Of a stretch of 64,000 nt of DNA, positions 9,230-21,611 are shown piece by piece. Positions within the stretch are counted from its first letter, which is position 1. Each line of letters begins with the position of its first letter. A program made the translations under genes and the position numbers. The DNA is taken from NCBI RefSeq assembly GCF_014323565.1, contig NZ_CP058669.1, positions 1,577,501 to 1,641,500 on the forward strand, read 5' to 3'. The notes beneath the pieces were generated by a model. That model ran no database searches. It saw only the letters and a program-made list of their open reading frames with translations, and was not told the origin of the DNA. The stretch is from Hyphobacterium sp. CCMP332. Lineage in GTDB: Bacteria > Pseudomonadota > Alphaproteobacteria > Caulobacterales > Maricaulaceae.

Positions 9230-10132
9230 ATGTCCCTGAAATTCGGGAATACAGCCATTGCTCTTGCCGCTCTTGTGGCCCTGACTGTCAGTGGAGCCGC
9301 CGTGGCGCGCCTGGACAGCGTAACTCTGGAGCGAGCGCCGAGCGGTCATTTCCTCGTCCCGGTGACGATCAATGGCCAGGGCCCCTACACTTTCCTGTTC
9401 GATACAGGCGCAAGCCACACGGCCATTGCTCAACCGGTAGCCGAAACACTGGGATTCCGTTCGGAATGGAATCGAACCGACGATGTGCAATCGCTGACCA
9501 CCCGGTTCGAAGCCGAGCGCTTTGCACTGAACCGGTTTGAATTTGCCACAACCGGCCCGATGCTGATCGACAGCGTCGTCATTCCGGACAGTGCGGACAA
9601 TCCCAATCCGATTGATGGCCTTCTCGGCGCGGATGCGATCAATGCAAGGCGTTATGCCATGGATTTCTCTGCCGGCACGCTGACCTTTCATGCCGCGCCG
9701 GCACAGATTGCGGATGGCCGCGTCAGCCCGATTGGACTGCTCCTGTCGCGCGCTCACCTTCAACGCGGCGTCAGCCACATCAATGTCATTATCGATTCCG
9801 GAAGTGCGCTATCCATCGTCAATCAACGCCTCGCGCGCTATATCCGTCACCGCTCCGGAACGGTGCGATACAACATCAATGGTGTTGATGACGACGTCGA
9901 TATCGAGGCCGCGCCGGTGAATGTTCGCCGCTTCCAGATCGGCGGACTTTGCGTTGACAGATTTCCGGCCCTGCAGGCCGATCTCGATGTCTTCAGTGCG
10001 CAGGGCTGGGATCATGAACCGGCGATGATACTGGGCATGGATGTGCTTCAATATGCGACCATCTCGATCGACCGGGATTCGGGCATCGTCCAGATCGACG
10101 CGTCCGACGCCAGCCATTCCTGCGCGCGCTGA
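9230..10132 (+). CDS. Retropepsin-like aspartyl protease, exported
   Basis: 300-residue protein with a signal peptide (residues 1 to about 24) and two aspartyl protease half-domains. The catalytic triads are D58-T-G-A-S and D189-S-G-S-A, each followed by the hydrophobic segment expected of clan AA (gag-polyprotein/retropepsin-like) bacterial proteases. The start is fixed by AAAGGAGG six bases upstream of ATG 9230; an upstream in-frame ATG at 9155 lacks this and would spoil the signal peptide. Likely acts in the periplasm. Substrate unknown. Two Cys near the C-terminal half (about 243 and 299) could form a disulfide. A strong terminator follows. Confidence 0.83.
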   Translation: MSLKFGNTAIALAALVALTVSGAAVARLDSVTLERAPSGHFLVPVTINGQGPYTFLFDTGASHTAIAQPVAETLGFRSEWNRTDDVQSLTTRFEAERFALNRFEFATTGPMLIDSVVIPDSADNPNPIDGLLGADAINARRYAMDFSAGTLTFHAAPAQIADGRVSPIGLLLSRAHLQRGVSHINVIIDSGSALSIVNQRLARYIRHRSGTVRYNINGVDDDVDIEAAPVNVRRFQIGGLCVDRFPALQADLDVFSAQGWDHEPAMILGMDVLQYATISIDRDSGIVQIDASDASHSCAR

Positions 10133-15401: not shown

Positions 15402-16868
15402 ATGGCAAACCGGCTTTTGGCCGTATTGGGTGCCGCGGCATTATTTGCATGCAGTGAACCCGTCACGGAAACAGTTGTCGTCGATGCGCCCGATACCGAA
15501 ACGACGGTCTCGGGCATTCAGGTCGATGTTCAGTATCACACGCTTGAAAACGGCCTGCGGGTCGTCTTGTCCCGCGACACCTCCGTCCCGACGGCCACCG
15601 TGGCCGTCTATTACGGCGTCGGTTTCCGCAATGAACCACGCGGCCGCACCGGCTTTGCCCACCTGTTCGAGCACCTGATGTTCGAAGGATCCGAAAACCT
15701 GCCCGGCGGCACGATGACCAATCTCATCTACAATGCCGGCGGCGTACAGAACGGCTCCACCCGCTTCGATTTCACCAATTACTTCGAGGTCGTGCCCAAT
15801 AATGCGCTGGAAGCCATCATCTGGGCCGAATCCGACCGCATGGCGCGCCCGATCATTGATGAGGAAAATCTCGCAGCCCAGGGCGGCGTCGTGGAGAACG
15901 AGGTTCTGGTGAACGTCATCAACCAGCCCTATGGCGGCTGGATCTGGATCGACCTGCCCATGCTCGCCAATGAAAACTGGCACAATGCCCATAATTTCTA
16001 TGGCGATCTGGACGATTTGCGGGCCGCCACGCTGGACGATGTCCAGACCTTCTTCGACACCTATTATGCGGTCAACAACGCCACGATCGTCGTCGTCGGC
16101 GATATTGATTACGACGAAACCCTCGGCTGGATCGAGGCCAATTTCGCCAGTATCGAACCGGGTCCGCCCCTGCCGGAGATCGATATTTCCGAGCCGCGCC
16201 AGGAAGAAGAGAAGTTCGGCGAAATCTATGACCGTCTGGCGCCGCAGCCCGCCTTGGGTTTCGGCTATCACATGCCGGAGCGCGGCACGCCGGAATATTA
16301 CGCCATGGCCGTGATCGACCAGATTCTGGTCCAGGGCGATGACAGTCTCCTGAACCAGCGCATCGTCAATGAAGAGGGCTACGCCTCCAGCGTTTTTGGC
16401 GGCATCAATCTGCTCGGCAACATGTACAATTATAATGGCCCGATGCTGTGGTCGGCCGGCATGATTCACGGTGATGAATACGACCACGAAGTCATCATGG
16501 CCGATGTGGACGAGGTGATCGAGCAACTGCGCACCGAGGAGATCAGCGAGGAACAGCTCAACCGCGCCATCACCAAATTGCGCTCGCAATTCTACAATAT
16601 CGTCGATTCCGCGTCGCGGTTCGGCCTGGCGGATCTGCTCGCGGTTTTCGCCATGTTTGATGATGATCCGTCCCGGATCAACCGGATCGAGCAAGGCTTT
16701 GATCAGGTCACGCCGGAACTGGTTCTGGCTACCGCGCAGGAATATCTGCGGCCCACCAACCGATCCGTGCTGCGGGTCATTCCGGATCCCGATGGCACAT
16801 TGGGCGGTCAGGCAGAGGATACAGATCAAGGCGACTCCGGGACTGAAACACCGGATGAGGATCAATAG
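15402..16868 (+). CDS. M16 family zinc metallopeptidase, catalytic subunit (lipoprotein)
   Basis: 488-residue pitrilysin/insulinase-family protein. The inverted zinc motif is intact (H87-L-F-E90-H91) and the distal Glu ligand is found about 75 residues later (Q-G-G-V-V-E-N-E, residues 165-167), so this is an active peptidase. The N-terminus has a lipobox (L-F-A-C17), predicting a periplasm-facing lipoprotein. The C-terminus is acidic and low-complexity. GGAGG-like sequence (GGGAGG) precedes the ATG. It is followed 13 bases later by a non-catalytic M16 paralogue; such pairs form heterodimers in the PqqF/Ymx-like subfamily. Confidence 0.93.
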   Translation: MANRLLAVLGAAALFACSEPVTETVVVDAPDTETTVSGIQVDVQYHTLENGLRVVLSRDTSVPTATVAVYYGVGFRNEPRGRTGFAHLFEHLMFEGSENLPGGTMTNLIYNAGGVQNGSTRFDFTNYFEVVPNNALEAIIWAESDRMARPIIDEENLAAQGGVVENEVLVNVINQPYGGWIWIDLPMLANENWHNAHNFYGDLDDLRAATLDDVQTFFDTYYAVNNATIVVVGDIDYDETLGWIEANFASIEPGPPLPEIDISEPRQEEEKFGEIYDRLAPQPALGFGYHMPERGTPEYYAMAVIDQILVQGDDSLLNQRIVNEEGYASSVFGGINLLGNMYNYNGPMLWSAGMIHGDEYDHEVIMADVDEVIEQLRTEEISEEQLNRAITKLRSQFYNIVDSASRFGLADLLAVFAMFDDDPSRINRIEQGFDQVTPELVLATAQEYLRPTNRSVLRVIPDPDGTLGGQAEDTDQGDSGTETPDEDQ

Positions 16869-16881
16869 GGAGGACATGACG

Positions 16882-18294
16882 ATGATGAAATCGACCACAT
16901 TTCTGATGGCGGCATCCCTGATGCTTATGTCCGCTCCGACGGCTTTCTCGCAAGCCCTGCCGCGGCCGGAAATCGGCCCGGCACCGGCGTTCGAACTGCC
17001 GGAAACATCGACCGTCGTGCTCGATAACGGGCTCGAAGTCACCTTCATCCATTTCGGCCTGGCGCCGAAGGTGAACATTTCGGTGCAGATTCTGGCCGGC
17101 AATGTCTTTGATGGCGAGAATACCTATATCGCCGACCTGACCGCCGCCATGATGGAAGAAGGTGCCGGCGGGGAATCGCCGGAATCGATTGCCCGGGCCT
17201 TTGCTTCCATGGGCGGCGACATGAATGTCGGCGTCGGCATGCATACGACGAATTTCTCGGCCAATGTGCTGACCGAATTCGGGCCGGAAGCCCTTTCCCG
17301 CATCGCCACCGTGATCCGCAATCCGGATTTTCCGGAATCGGAATTCGAGCGCATCCGCCAAAGCCAGGTCCGCAATATGACAGTGGCCCGGTCACAACCG
17401 GGGCCGGTCGCCAATGAAGCCTATGTTGGCCTCCTCTACGGCACTGACCATCCCTATGGTCAGGGCATGCCGGACGAAGACCAGATGGAAAGCTTCACCA
17501 TGGATCAGGTGCGCGCTTTCTATGACGCCAATTTCGGTGCCGCCCGGACCCGAATCTATGTGGCCGGACGCTTTGACGAAGAGCGTCTGGAGGCCGCCAT
17601 TCGCGAGGCATTCGGCGACTGGGAGTCCGGCCCCGAAGCCAATATTCCGCCCGCCTCGATCAATGGCGGCCCGGTAGTCCAGCTGATTGATCGTCCCGGC
17701 GCACCGCAGGCCACCATCCGTCTCGGCTTTCCGGTTGCACCGATCGGTACCGAAGACGCCTACCGGATGACCGTCATGAACGCGATTCTCGGCGGCTCCT
17801 TCACCTCCCGCCTGACCAGCAATCTGCGCGAGGAGCGCGGCTGGACCTATTCGCCCGGATCCGGTGTCACCAACCGGGTCGGTACATCCTACTGGACTTT
17901 CAGTGCGGACATCACGACGGGTGCCACGATCCAAGCCTTCTCGGAAATCTTCAGTGAAATCCAGACACTCCAGCTGAATACGCCCGACGAGGAAGAAGCG
18001 GGCGGCATGCGAAGCTGGCTGTCGGGCCTGTTCATTCTCCAGAACGCCTCGACCGGCGGGCTAATCGGCCAGATTTCGAACCGCGATTTCTACGGTCTTC
18101 CGGGCGATTATCTGGAAACCTATGTTGACCGCATCAATGATGTCTCCAATGGCGACATCTCGGCAGTAGCGTCCGAATACCTGCAACCGGACCGCATGGT
18201 GCTGGTTGTGGTCGGCGACCTCGATTCGATTGGCGAAGGGCTTCAGGCCTTCCCGCAATTCGCGGATGCCGAATTCATCATGGACGAGGAATAG
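16882..18294 (+). CDS. M16 family protein, non-catalytic partner subunit
   Basis: 470-residue M16-fold protein with a signal peptide (MMKSTTFLMAASLMLM...TAFSQ). At the position of the zinc motif it reads A-D-L-T-A-A-M-M-E-E-G, lacking H-x-x-E-H, so it should be catalytically silent. The C-terminal half keeps the Arg/Tyr substrate-gripping region typical of the partner subunit (S-R-L-x-S-N-L-R-E-E-R-G-W-T-Y). Three in-frame ATGs (16876, 16882, 16885) follow GGGAGG; 16882 has the best spacing (8). With the upstream gene it probably forms a periplasmic heterodimeric peptidase. A strong terminator follows. Confidence 0.9.
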   Translation: MMKSTTFLMAASLMLMSAPTAFSQALPRPEIGPAPAFELPETSTVVLDNGLEVTFIHFGLAPKVNISVQILAGNVFDGENTYIADLTAAMMEEGAGGESPESIARAFASMGGDMNVGVGMHTTNFSANVLTEFGPEALSRIATVIRNPDFPESEFERIRQSQVRNMTVARSQPGPVANEAYVGLLYGTDHPYGQGMPDEDQMESFTMDQVRAFYDANFGAARTRIYVAGRFDEERLEAAIREAFGDWESGPEANIPPASINGGPVVQLIDRPGAPQATIRLGFPVAPIGTEDAYRMTVMNAILGGSFTSRLTSNLREERGWTYSPGSGVTNRVGTSYWTFSADITTGATIQAFSEIFSEIQTLQLNTPDEEEAGGMRSWLSGLFILQNASTGGLIGQISNRDFYGLPGDYLETYVDRINDVSNGDISAVASEYLQPDRMVLVVVGDLDSIGEGLQAFPQFADAEFIMDEE

Positions 18295-18885: not shown

Positions 18886-18900
18886 AACGGAGCCCGCCGC

Positions 18901-19677
18901 ATGAGCAATCTAGTCTCGGTCGAAACATCAGACGGCGTGCGGACCATCCGCTGGAACCGTCCGGAAAAGAAAAACGCCCTCCTGCGTGAAATGTACACCG
19001 CCGCAGCCGAGGCCATTGAATCCGGTGAAGCGGAAAAGTCGGTGCGGGTTTTCGTACTGGGCGGACAGCCCGGCCTGTTCACGGCCGGCAATGATCTGGT
19101 CGATTTCATGGAAGCCCCGCCTCATATCGGTTCGGGCGATATGCCGCCGGTCGAGCGTTTCATGCGCGCCCTGATGGGAGCGAAAAAGCCCGTAATCGCC
19201 GAAGTGGACGGCCTCGCCATCGGCATCGGCACGACGCTTCTGATGCATTGCGATCTCGCTTACGCATCCGAGAATGCCGCCTTCAAGACGCCTTTTGCCG
19301 ATCTGGCTTTGGCCCCGGAATTTGCCTCCAGCCTGCTCTTTCCCACGCGCCTCGGACGCGCGGCGGCCTCGGACCTTTTGATGCTGGGCAGTGTCTGGAA
19401 TGCGGCCCGCGCCCTCGAGGCCGGCCTGATTACCGGTATCTTCCCGTCGGCGCGCCTTGCCAATGATGTGCGCGAGAAGGCGCTGGCCCTCGCCGCCAAA
19501 TCCCCCGGCGCGGTCCGCAAGGCCAAGGAGTTGATGATGACGCCGGACGAGCCACTTGATGCCCGGATGGCCCGCGAGGGCGGCATTTTCGCCGAGATGC
19601 TGCAATCGCCGGAATTTTCCGAAGCCGTCACCGCTTTCATGGAACGCCGCGCGCCTGACTTCTCGAAGTTCGGCTGA
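18901..19677 (+). CDS. Enoyl-CoA hydratase/isomerase family protein
   Basis: 258-residue crotonase-fold protein. The two oxyanion-hole segments are recognisable (F-T-A-G-N-D-L near residue 62 and D-G-L-A-I-G-I-G-T-T near 105), as is the C-terminal region. The catalytic Glu pair of classical enoyl-CoA hydratase is not clearly matched at the second site (F-A-D-L-A-L-A-P-E-F), so it may be an isomerase-like or atypical member. Starts at ATG 18901 with CGGAG upstream. Its TGA overlaps the next ATG by one base, so it heads a coupled string of genes with the aminotransferase and sulfotransferase-like genes. Confidence 0.88.
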   Translation: MSNLVSVETSDGVRTIRWNRPEKKNALLREMYTAAAEAIESGEAEKSVRVFVLGGQPGLFTAGNDLVDFMEAPPHIGSGDMPPVERFMRALMGAKKPVIAEVDGLAIGIGTTLLMHCDLAYASENAAFKTPFADLALAPEFASSLLFPTRLGRAAASDLLMLGSVWNAARALEAGLITGIFPSARLANDVREKALALAAKSPGAVRKAKELMMTPDEPLDARMAREGGIFAEMLQSPEFSEAVTAFMERRAPDFSKFG

Positions 19678-20585
19678 TGGGCAAGGGCGCGCATTCCTAT
19701 ATCGACGATCCGCGCAATGCGGATGTGAAGGTCTGGATCAATGGCGCGCTCTATCCGCGCGCCGAGGCGAAAATCTCCGTGCTCGATTCCGGCTTCGTGC
19801 TGGGCGATGGCGTCTGGGAGGGCCTGCGCGTTCACAAGGGCAGGATCGCCTTTCTGGACACCCATCTCGACCGGCTGGAAGAAGGCGCAAAAGCGCTCGA
19901 TTATGATCTGGGCCTGTCGCGGGAAGACCTAACCAAAGCCCTCTACGACACGCTTGATGCCAATGGCATGCTCGACGGCGATGGCGTCCATATCCGCCTG
20001 ATGACCACGCGCGGCCTTAAGGCGACGCCCTATCAGGATCCGCGTGTCACCATATCGTCGGCCACCATCGTTATCCTGCCCGAATGGAAGCGCCCGGACC
20101 CGGCAGTCGCGGAAAAAGGCCTGCGCCTCTTCACCGTCCATGTCCGCCGCGGCTATCCCGATGTTCAGGACCAGAAGCTGAACTCGCATTCCAAAATCAA
20201 CTGCATCACCGCCTGCATCCAGGCCACCAAGGCCGGGGCCGACGAAGCCCTGATGCTGGACCCGCACGGATTTGTGGCCACCTGCAATTCGACGCACTTC
20301 TTCATTGTCCGCAAGGGCGAAGTATGGACGTCCACAGGCGATTATTGCCTCGGCGGCGTCACGCGCGGTGTGATCATCGACATTTGCCGCGAAGCCGGGA
20401 TTCCGGTGTTCGAGAAGAATTTCACCCTGGCTCAGGTCTATTCAGCCGAAGAAGCCTTCACCACCGGCACTTTCGCCGGGCTGGTGCCGGTCATCGAGGT
20501 CGATGGCCGCAAGATTTCCGGCGGCCGCGGACCCATGGTGGAGCGCTTGCAGGCGCTCTATCGACGGAAGCTCGAGGCGGAATGA
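19677..20585 (+). CDS. PLP-dependent class IV aminotransferase (BCAT-like)
   Basis: 302-residue fold-type IV aminotransferase, the family of IlvE, D-amino acid aminotransferase and aminodeoxychorismate lyase. The N-terminal segment S-V-L-D-S-G-F-V-L-G-D-G-V-W-E-G and the C-terminal phosphate-binding segments (L-G-G-V-T-R-G, T-T-G-T-F-A-G) are typical; Lys167 (in D-Q-K-L-N-S-H) aligns best with the PLP lysine. Substrate cannot be told from sequence. Start overlaps the upstream stop by 1 base and its stop overlaps the downstream start by 4 (ATGA), so it is tightly coupled to the sulfotransferase-like gene. Confidence 0.9.
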   Translation: MGKGAHSYIDDPRNADVKVWINGALYPRAEAKISVLDSGFVLGDGVWEGLRVHKGRIAFLDTHLDRLEEGAKALDYDLGLSREDLTKALYDTLDANGMLDGDGVHIRLMTTRGLKATPYQDPRVTISSATIVILPEWKRPDPAVAEKGLRLFTVHVRRGYPDVQDQKLNSHSKINCITACIQATKAGADEALMLDPHGFVATCNSTHFFIVRKGEVWTSTGDYCLGGVTRGVIIDICREAGIPVFEKNFTLAQVYSAEEAFTTGTFAGLVPVIEVDGRKISGGRGPMVERLQALYRRKLEAE

Positions 20586-21316
20586 CGCAAACCATCCGTA
20601 TCTGCCTCTGGTCCGGGCCGCGCAATATCTCGACGGCGACCATGCGCGCGTTTGAAAACCGTCCCGATTGCGCCGTCTGGGACGAACCCTTCTACGGGCC
20701 CTATCTGGTTCGCACCGGCCTCGATCACCCCGGCCGCGACACCATTCTCGCCGCTGTACCGCTGGACGAGGATGACATCGCCGCCCGCTGCGCCGGTGAG
20801 GCACCCGATGGATCGCCGCTCTTCTTCCAGAAACATATGTGCCAGCACATGCTGGACGGAATACCGCGCGACTGGGCGGCCCATTGCCGTCACATCTTCC
20901 TGATCCGCGACCCGGCCGAGGTTGCCGCCAGTTTTGCCGCGACCACGGGCAGTGTGACCGCCGATGACATCGGTCAGGTCCGGCAGTCGGAACTCTACGA
21001 GAAAATCAGCCAGCGCACGGGCCGGGCCTGGCCGGTGATCGAGGGCGCGGATGTGCTCGCCGATCCCGAAGGCCTGCTACGCGCGCTTTGCGCCGCAATA
21101 GACATTCCTTTCGATGCCGCCATGCTGTCCTGGCCTGCGGGAAAGCGGGAGAGTGATGGCGTCTGGGCGCCGTGGTGGTATGGCCGCGTCGAGGCCTCGA
21201 CCGGTTTCGAGCCGCCACAGCCGAGCCCGCACGATCTGCCGGACGGCGCGCGCAACGCCGTCGAAACCAGCCAGCCGCATTACGAGAAAATGCAGGCGCG
21301 GAAACTGAGGATCTGA
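20582..21316 (+). CDS. Sulfotransferase-like P-loop protein
   Basis: 244-residue protein with an N-terminal P-loop-like segment W-S-G-P-R-N-I-S-T-A (residues 8-17), matching the 5'-phosphosulfate loop of the sulfotransferase superfamily, a middle strand F-L-I-R-D-P (3'-phosphate-binding region) and a distinctive C-terminal D-G-V-W-A-P-W-W-Y block. It overlaps the aminotransferase gene by 4 bases. From memory, plant proteins annotated as BCAT-like 1 and 2 fuse a domain of this kind, with the same W-A-P-W-W-Y block, to a class IV aminotransferase. Whether it moves sulfate is unproven. Confidence 0.82.
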   Translation: MTQTIRICLWSGPRNISTATMRAFENRPDCAVWDEPFYGPYLVRTGLDHPGRDTILAAVPLDEDDIAARCAGEAPDGSPLFFQKHMCQHMLDGIPRDWAAHCRHIFLIRDPAEVAASFAATTGSVTADDIGQVRQSELYEKISQRTGRAWPVIEGADVLADPEGLLRALCAAIDIPFDAAMLSWPAGKRESDGVWAPWWYGRVEASTGFEPPQPSPHDLPDGARNAVETSQPHYEKMQARKLRI

Positions 21317-21320
21317 AGCC

Positions 21321-21611
21321 ATGAGTGAATATGAAATCCAGCATGAATCATCTGAAACCAAAGGCCGGTTCTTCATGGATCTGGGCGATGGATCGGAAGC
21401 CGAGCTGACCTATTCCATTGCCGGCCAGACCCGCTGGATCGCCGACCATACCGGTGTCCCGCAACAGCATGGCGGCAAGGGGCTGGCAGGCGAGCTCGTG
21501 CGCGCACTGATCGCGGGCGCCCGCAAGGCCGATGTAAAAATCATCCCGCTCTGCCCCTATGTGAAAGCCTGGGCACAAAAACATCCTGAAGAGGCGGAGA
21601 TTTTCGACTAG
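21321..21611 (+). CDS. Small GNAT-like N-acetyltransferase (YidJ/Gcn5-related)
   Basis: 96-residue protein of the short, single-domain GNAT-like family (N-acetyltransferase domain PF14542 type). The acetyl-CoA loop is visible around Q-Q-H-G-G-K-G-L-A-G-E-L-V-R and is followed by the family's P-L-C-P-Y-V-K segment. Substrate unknown. It starts 4 bases after the sulfotransferase-like stop, so it is the last gene of the 18901-21611 string. Confidence 0.85.
   Translation: MSEYEIQHESSETKGRFFMDLGDGSEAELTYSIAGQTRWIADHTGVPQQHGGKGLAGELVRALIAGARKADVKIIPLCPYVKAWAQKHPEEAEIFD

Follow-up and report, generated by a model that had tools for sequence, protein, structure and literature searches.

A lysine-less aminotransferase-like protein paired with a Sulfotransfer_5 protein in Hyphobacterium and other Proteobacteria

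Two overlapping genes of Hyphobacterium sp. CCMP332 encode a class IV aminotransferase-like protein (AT-like) and a sulfotransferase-like protein (ST) that are inherited together across many Proteobacteria and therefore probably carry out one job together. The new point, which we draw from sequence comparison, is that the aminotransferase half lacks the residue that defines its class, and does so throughout the family that is locked to the sulfotransferase. We consider the evidence evenly poised for and against a two-protein module in which a PAPS sulfotransferase and a lysine-less, re-tooled class IV enzyme act on one amino-acid-like small metabolite.

The gene pair and its inheritance

The window, meaning the whole 64,000-nucleotide stretch of DNA that was analysed, carries both genes as intact open reading frames on the + strand. 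The AT-like gene (19677–20585; 302 residues) runs from an ATG at 19677 to a stop ending at 20585, and the ST gene (20582–21316; 244 residues) from an ATG at 20582 to a stop ending at 21316; the four bases ATGA at 20582–20585 belong to both, as an earlier note on this DNA had described. The blocks quoted in that note, DGVWAPWWY in ST and WEGLR in AT-like, are present and are conserved in their respective families. AT-like matches Pfam PF01063 (Aminotran_4) with 140 bits (cut-off 28.5), and ST matches PF19798 (Sulfotransfer_5) with 224 bits (cut-off 23.2). Immediately upstream lies a gene of the enoyl-CoA hydratase (ECH) family (18895–19677, +; PF00378). Because it overlaps the AT-like start by one base (TGATG at 19675–19679), ECH, AT-like and ST form one tight run. 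A small GNAT-type acetyltransferase gene (21321–21611, +; PF14542) begins 4 bases 3′ of ST. Elsewhere in the window, two consecutive M16-type zinc-peptidase-like ORFs (15402–18294) lie upstream of a MarR gene. The host genome (2.69 Mb, one contig) has a single ST of the paired type, and its closest relatives are found in Hyphobacterium, Glycocaulis and other Maricaulales.

A scan of genome contigs returned 80 ST loci, and loci were fetched from about 80 species. Searches by genome scan and by phylum placed ST in Pseudomonadota, in two oddly titled records and in distant plasmid-borne relatives. The two records (L019 and L073), titled Oceanobacillus and Flavobacteriia, contain Rhodobacterales-like ST genes and are probably mislabelled or contaminated. 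The two genes are neighbours in other genomes too: an AT-like gene stands beside ST in most of the fetched loci. Spacing was measured in 65 pairs; the 4-base overlap is the most frequent (31 of 65), ahead of 1 base (11) and 10 bases (7). The order is nearly always AT-like then ST, and is reversed in G032 (L191) and G384 (L192). No fused gene was found in the prokaryotic loci surveyed; two loci, L088 and L092, contain long reading frames that were considered as possible bacterial fusions, but these are antisense or other-frame ORFs, and AT-like and ST are separate there.

The neighbourhood of the pair varies by lineage. ECH adjoins it in many Maricaulales, and recurrence of the GNAT gene is limited to that order; in Rhodobacterales the neighbours are msrA, argG and ilvA, and in L069 and L079 they are hemL and ECH, all these genes being named by sequence likeness. 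An M24-type peptidase-like gene, read by eye, adjoins the pair in L189 and L190. We considered ECH as a putative third member of the module, since it recurs near the pair (L015, L069, L079, L183, L188), and set it aside because the ECH family is common. Argininosuccinate synthase, msrA and ilvA were likewise rejected as functional neighbours, their presence being explained by Rhodobacterales synteny only. That Rhodobacterales setting is what one would expect if two housekeeping genes had come to lie together by chance; such an origin has next to no probability and we regard it as already refuted, as the linkage recurs across many families whose neighbouring genes differ, and the two genes co-occur even when unlinked.

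Co-occurrence was counted in 398 Pseudomonadota genomes, with AT-like called at E ≤ 1e-70 and orthologous ST at E ≤ 1e-80. Both genes are present in 37 genomes, AT-like only in 4, orthologous ST only in 0 and neither in 357, so that all 37 genomes with orthologous ST fall within the 41 that carry the AT-like family (Fisher p 5e-48, a value inflated by the relatedness of the genomes). The two genes are linked by position in 28 of the 37 and unlinked in 9. Among the listed genomes of one family (f2), three carry both genes and the others neither. Where ST has no AT-like neighbour (16 genomes), the Asn-type gene lies elsewhere in 15, the exception, G205, being a MAG; loss of AT-like where ST stands alone was therefore rejected. 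The conserved linkage, and the finding that none of the 398 genomes has orthologous ST without AT-like, whether or not the two are linked, support the reading of the pair as a functional unit. Conversely, four genomes (G267, G379, G292 and G325) keep AT-like without ST, and hence the AT-like protein can work alone in some lineages.

The replaced active-site residues of the AT-like protein

In known structures of branched-chain aminotransferases (BCATs) and D-amino-acid transaminase, a lysine forms the Schiff base with PLP, a glutamate contacts the pyridine nitrogen and a tyrosine serves the O3′ position. A gap-free active-site alignment to the archaeal BCAT 5mqz pairs KLNSHSKINC of AT-like with NIKSLNYLNN. 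In the family signature K167-L-N169-S-H-S-K173-I-N175 (20175–20201, +), Asn169 (codon 20181–20183) replaces the PLP lysine and Lys173 replaces the O3′ Tyr; in A201-T-C-N-S-T-H207 (20277–20297, +), Thr202 replaces the Glu. The lysine column holds Asn in 67 of 67 loci, and then in all 108 distinct family members, 107 of which match N[ST]HS[KR][LI]N while the remaining one reads NSHSRLA. Over the same 67 loci, the Tyr column is Lys in 65 and Arg in 2, and the Glu column is Thr in 65, Ser in 2 and Glu in 0. The PLP phosphate cup is kept (Arg, the Thr and Arg of GITR, and the TG of TGT, each in 67 of 67), and so are the BCAT blocks GDGVWEGLR and R-x4-RG.

The other three class IV genes of the same genome, of the D-amino-acid, branched-chain and PabC types, keep the lysine (DIKSVS, GIKAGGNY and RFKTLSYADN), and so does the canonical class IV gene of L113. 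In a phylogenetic tree the Asn-type proteins form a single clade (support 99/96), and three canonical rows sit on very long branches. The AT-like protein misses the NCBIfam ilvE and transaminase cut-offs, scoring 229 of 363 bits for NF006185 and 188 of 246 for TIGR01122. Judged from these residues, AT-like departs from the canonical aminotransferases; the reading of the first gene as one, made in the earlier note, is not supported, because every member has other residues in place of the catalytic lysine and of two more positions that contact PLP.

The predicted AT-like structure superimposes on 7z79 with a TM score of about 0.9 and on 5e25 with 0.85. The model has pLDDT < 50 at residues 165–171, exactly the Asn loop, and is thus too weak there to show the active-site geometry. 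Archaeal-type BCATs (5mqz, 5cm0 and 5e25; 34–35% identity) are the nearest canonical relatives and share GDGV[FW]EG[IL]R, R-x4-RG and the phosphate cup, but they differ in having the PLP lysine, Glu and Tyr. The closest solved structure is the Variovorax paradoxus aminotransferase-like protein (7z79; about 52% identical), which has the same fold, Asn in place of the lysine and Thr/Ser in place of the Glu, but falls in a sister branch that has Arg in place of the Tyr. Entry 9j32 is, by its depositors' title, the mutant N174K of the Variovorax aminotransferase-like protein, and N174, counted along the alignment, falls in the Asn169 column. Our literature search found no paper naming 7z79 or 9j32 in this sense, or the WAPWWY block. 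We also considered Lys173 as a relocated Schiff-base lysine; this is unlikely, as Arg occupies the position in 7z79 and in at least 8 loci.

Sampled members of the 7z79 branch lie in amino-acid ABC transporter operons of genomes that have no paired-type ST. In G267, G379 and G292, AT-like is of this branch (G379 being assigned by its 7z79-type sequence, not as a tree row) and lies directly 3′ of a family-3 amino-acid ABC transporter (SBP, two permeases and ATPase).

Two other readings of the AT-like protein have to be weighed here. The main rival is that it is a non-catalytic partner of ST (a pseudoenzyme, scaffold or substrate-presenting subunit), much as a lysine-less subunit supports the PLP enzyme serine palmitoyltransferase. 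The loss of three PLP-contacting residues in all members and the finding that ST never occurs without AT-like across the 398 genomes are in its favour. However, the replacing residues (Asn, His, Lys/Arg and Asn) are nearly invariant, a constancy that a dead site does not need, and the 7z79 clade occupies its transporter operons in genomes where there is no ST to assist; we hold this reading to be unlikely. The second, that of the earlier note, is a true PLP transaminase that manages without the lysine, by working through external aldimines only or with another base, with ST acting on its product. The retained phosphate cup (Arg, ITR and TGT), the GDGVWEGLR and R-x4-RG blocks and the amino-acid transporter neighbours are compatible with it, but no member keeps the Lys, Glu or Tyr, canonical lysine-bearing class IV genes of three types are already present in the genome and the protein falls below every NCBIfam transaminase cut-off, which makes it improbable. 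We infer instead that AT-like is still catalytic, with an active site that is altered but retained, since the new residues vary as little as catalytic residues do.

The probable sulfotransferase partner

The ST model is predicted with a pLDDT of 95.8. Fold searches (Foldseek, VIA-align) return PAPS sulfotransferases first, namely tyrosylprotein sulfotransferases (TPSTs), OLS and CurM at Z 13–14, and then glycopeptide, heparan and cytosolic enzymes. The 5′-phosphosulfate-binding loop W10-S-G-P-R-N-I-S-T18 (20609–20635, +) is invariant across 91 loci at every position except the Ile, and in the 3′-phosphate motif of PAPS sulfotransferases, R109-D-P-x5-S117 (20906–20932, +), which aligns with CurM and OLS, R109, P111 and S117 are invariant throughout the paired family. 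Glu35, Lys84 and His89 are conserved and are candidates for the catalytic base; Glu35 lies 21 residues past the P-loop Arg14, which we take to be the spacing of the TPST2 base.

The TPSTs (5wrj and 3ap2) are the top structural matches (Z 13.7–14.2), but they differ from ST in their 10–13% identity, protein substrate and membrane anchor. The CurM and OLS sulfotransferase domains (4gbm and 4gox; Z 13.4–13.5) are the only significant matches of the ST sequence profile against the PDB (E 8e-9 for CurM and 2.5e-7 for OLS); a phmmer search of the PDB with the single ST sequence yielded antibody noise. These domains differ from ST in that they belong to polyketide synthases and act on carrier-bound chains, and the profile match spans ST residues 95–195 only. 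In the literature, PF19798 was found only within lists.

APS kinase is strongly matched in 42 of 44 ST-bearing genomes, with marginal matches in two MAGs (G231 and G241); its presence is weakly discriminating because it is also found in 11 of 14 control genomes. A PF19798 protein encoded on a cyanobacterial plasmid, 29% identical to ST, has cysC as its neighbour. It could be argued that ST, although a P-loop enzyme, has abandoned PAPS, perhaps as a kinase-like transferase, and that the pair is unrelated to sulfation, as kinases appear further down the fold list and identity to relatives in a sulfation setting is at best about 30%. Against this, every top structural match is a PAPS sulfotransferase, R109-x7-S117 is invariant and the cyanobacterial relative adjoins an adenylyl-sulfate kinase gene; we find such a departure from PAPS very improbable.

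Distant members of the family occur in several other settings. On a Dolichospermum plasmid (L174, 6004–7932), a distant Sulfotransfer_5 gene lies beside genes for an adenylyl-sulfate kinase, amidohydrolases and a MATE exporter. In G067 (L093, 1378–2962), a second and divergent gene of the family overlaps an arylmalonate-decarboxylase-like gene, with a Rieske-type oxygenase-like ORF adjacent, a different setting from that of the pair. Two genomes, G164 and G389, have a distant ST relative only and no orthologous ST. That of G389 (L181, 3668–5616) directly follows a transaldolase-like gene, and the same run includes an APS-kinase-like ORF (9500–10114, read by eye), and that of G164 (L180, 4515–6274) adjoins aldo/keto-reductase-like and adenylation-domain-like ORFs.

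A possible joint reaction and its reach

Gene neighbourhoods offer a clue to the substrate. SBP_bac_3 operons directly precede AT-like in L176–L178. Among unlinked ST-bearing genomes, AT-like follows an ABC ATPase/permease run in L197; in L098/L099 the gene ahead of it encodes a Liv-type binding protein, and in L101, L102 and L194 it comes after other ABC ATPase genes (all named by sequence likeness, by eye). As unpaired AT-like genes thus often follow amino-acid ABC transporter genes, the arrangement suggests that the substrate of AT-like and ST is amino-acid-like. MmgE/PrpD genes also lie near AT-like in two unrelated lineages (L176, 907–2322, and L185, 5925–7280).

In the two-protein module that we propose, ST would be a Sulfotransfer_5 enzyme that presumably depends on PAPS and transfers a sulfonate group to a small metabolite. 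AT-like would be a BCAT-like fold that has permanently lost the PLP lysine and acquired a new invariant site of Asn169, His171, Lys/Arg173 and Thr/Ser202, built over the ancestral pocket for phosphate and carboxylate. Both proteins would act on the metabolite, either one after the other or joined in a complex. As a guess at the chemistry, sulfation may turn a hydroxyl into a leaving group, and AT-like, holding the substrate or its PLP/PMP adduct, may perform the next step. PMP-dependent dehydratases such as ColD also have no lysine, and in CurM and OLS sulfation prepares elimination; for these reasons sulfation followed by elimination makes a coherent guess. Against PLP/PMP chemistry in such a module, the Glu at the pyridine nitrogen is lost, which argues against strong carbanion stabilisation and carbanion chemistry on these cofactors. 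We hold only as a long shot the most specific form of the idea, in which a lysine-less PLP fold and a dedicated PAPS sulfotransferase would carry out sulfation-then-elimination, or something similar, on an amino-acid-like metabolite, in bacteria and in a plant fusion, as an undescribed pathway.

The plant fusion refers to BCAT-like 1/2, named in the earlier note, in which ST and AT-like domains would be joined in one protein. The Arabidopsis sequence that we take to be such a protein (555 residues), treated as a lead and not counted as evidence, aligns to ST over 11–236 (34%) and to AT-like over 258–544 (40%), and presumably has His in the Asn169 column. The plant domain order would then be ST followed by AT-like, opposite to that in the window; both gene orders occur in bacteria. 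Our literature search found no mention of the Arabidopsis loci At3g05190 and At5g27410, and the literature and data searched assign no function to the AT-like/ST pair.

Annotation by similarity would call AT-like a branched-chain aminotransferase, a name to which its active site gives no support. A conserved, lysine-less protein of PLP fold that is tied to a sulfotransferase suggests that many Proteobacteria carry out chemistry that has yet to be assigned. Should the plant fusion be as we take it to be, this chemistry would extend to plants, where the gene would be directly testable in a model organism.
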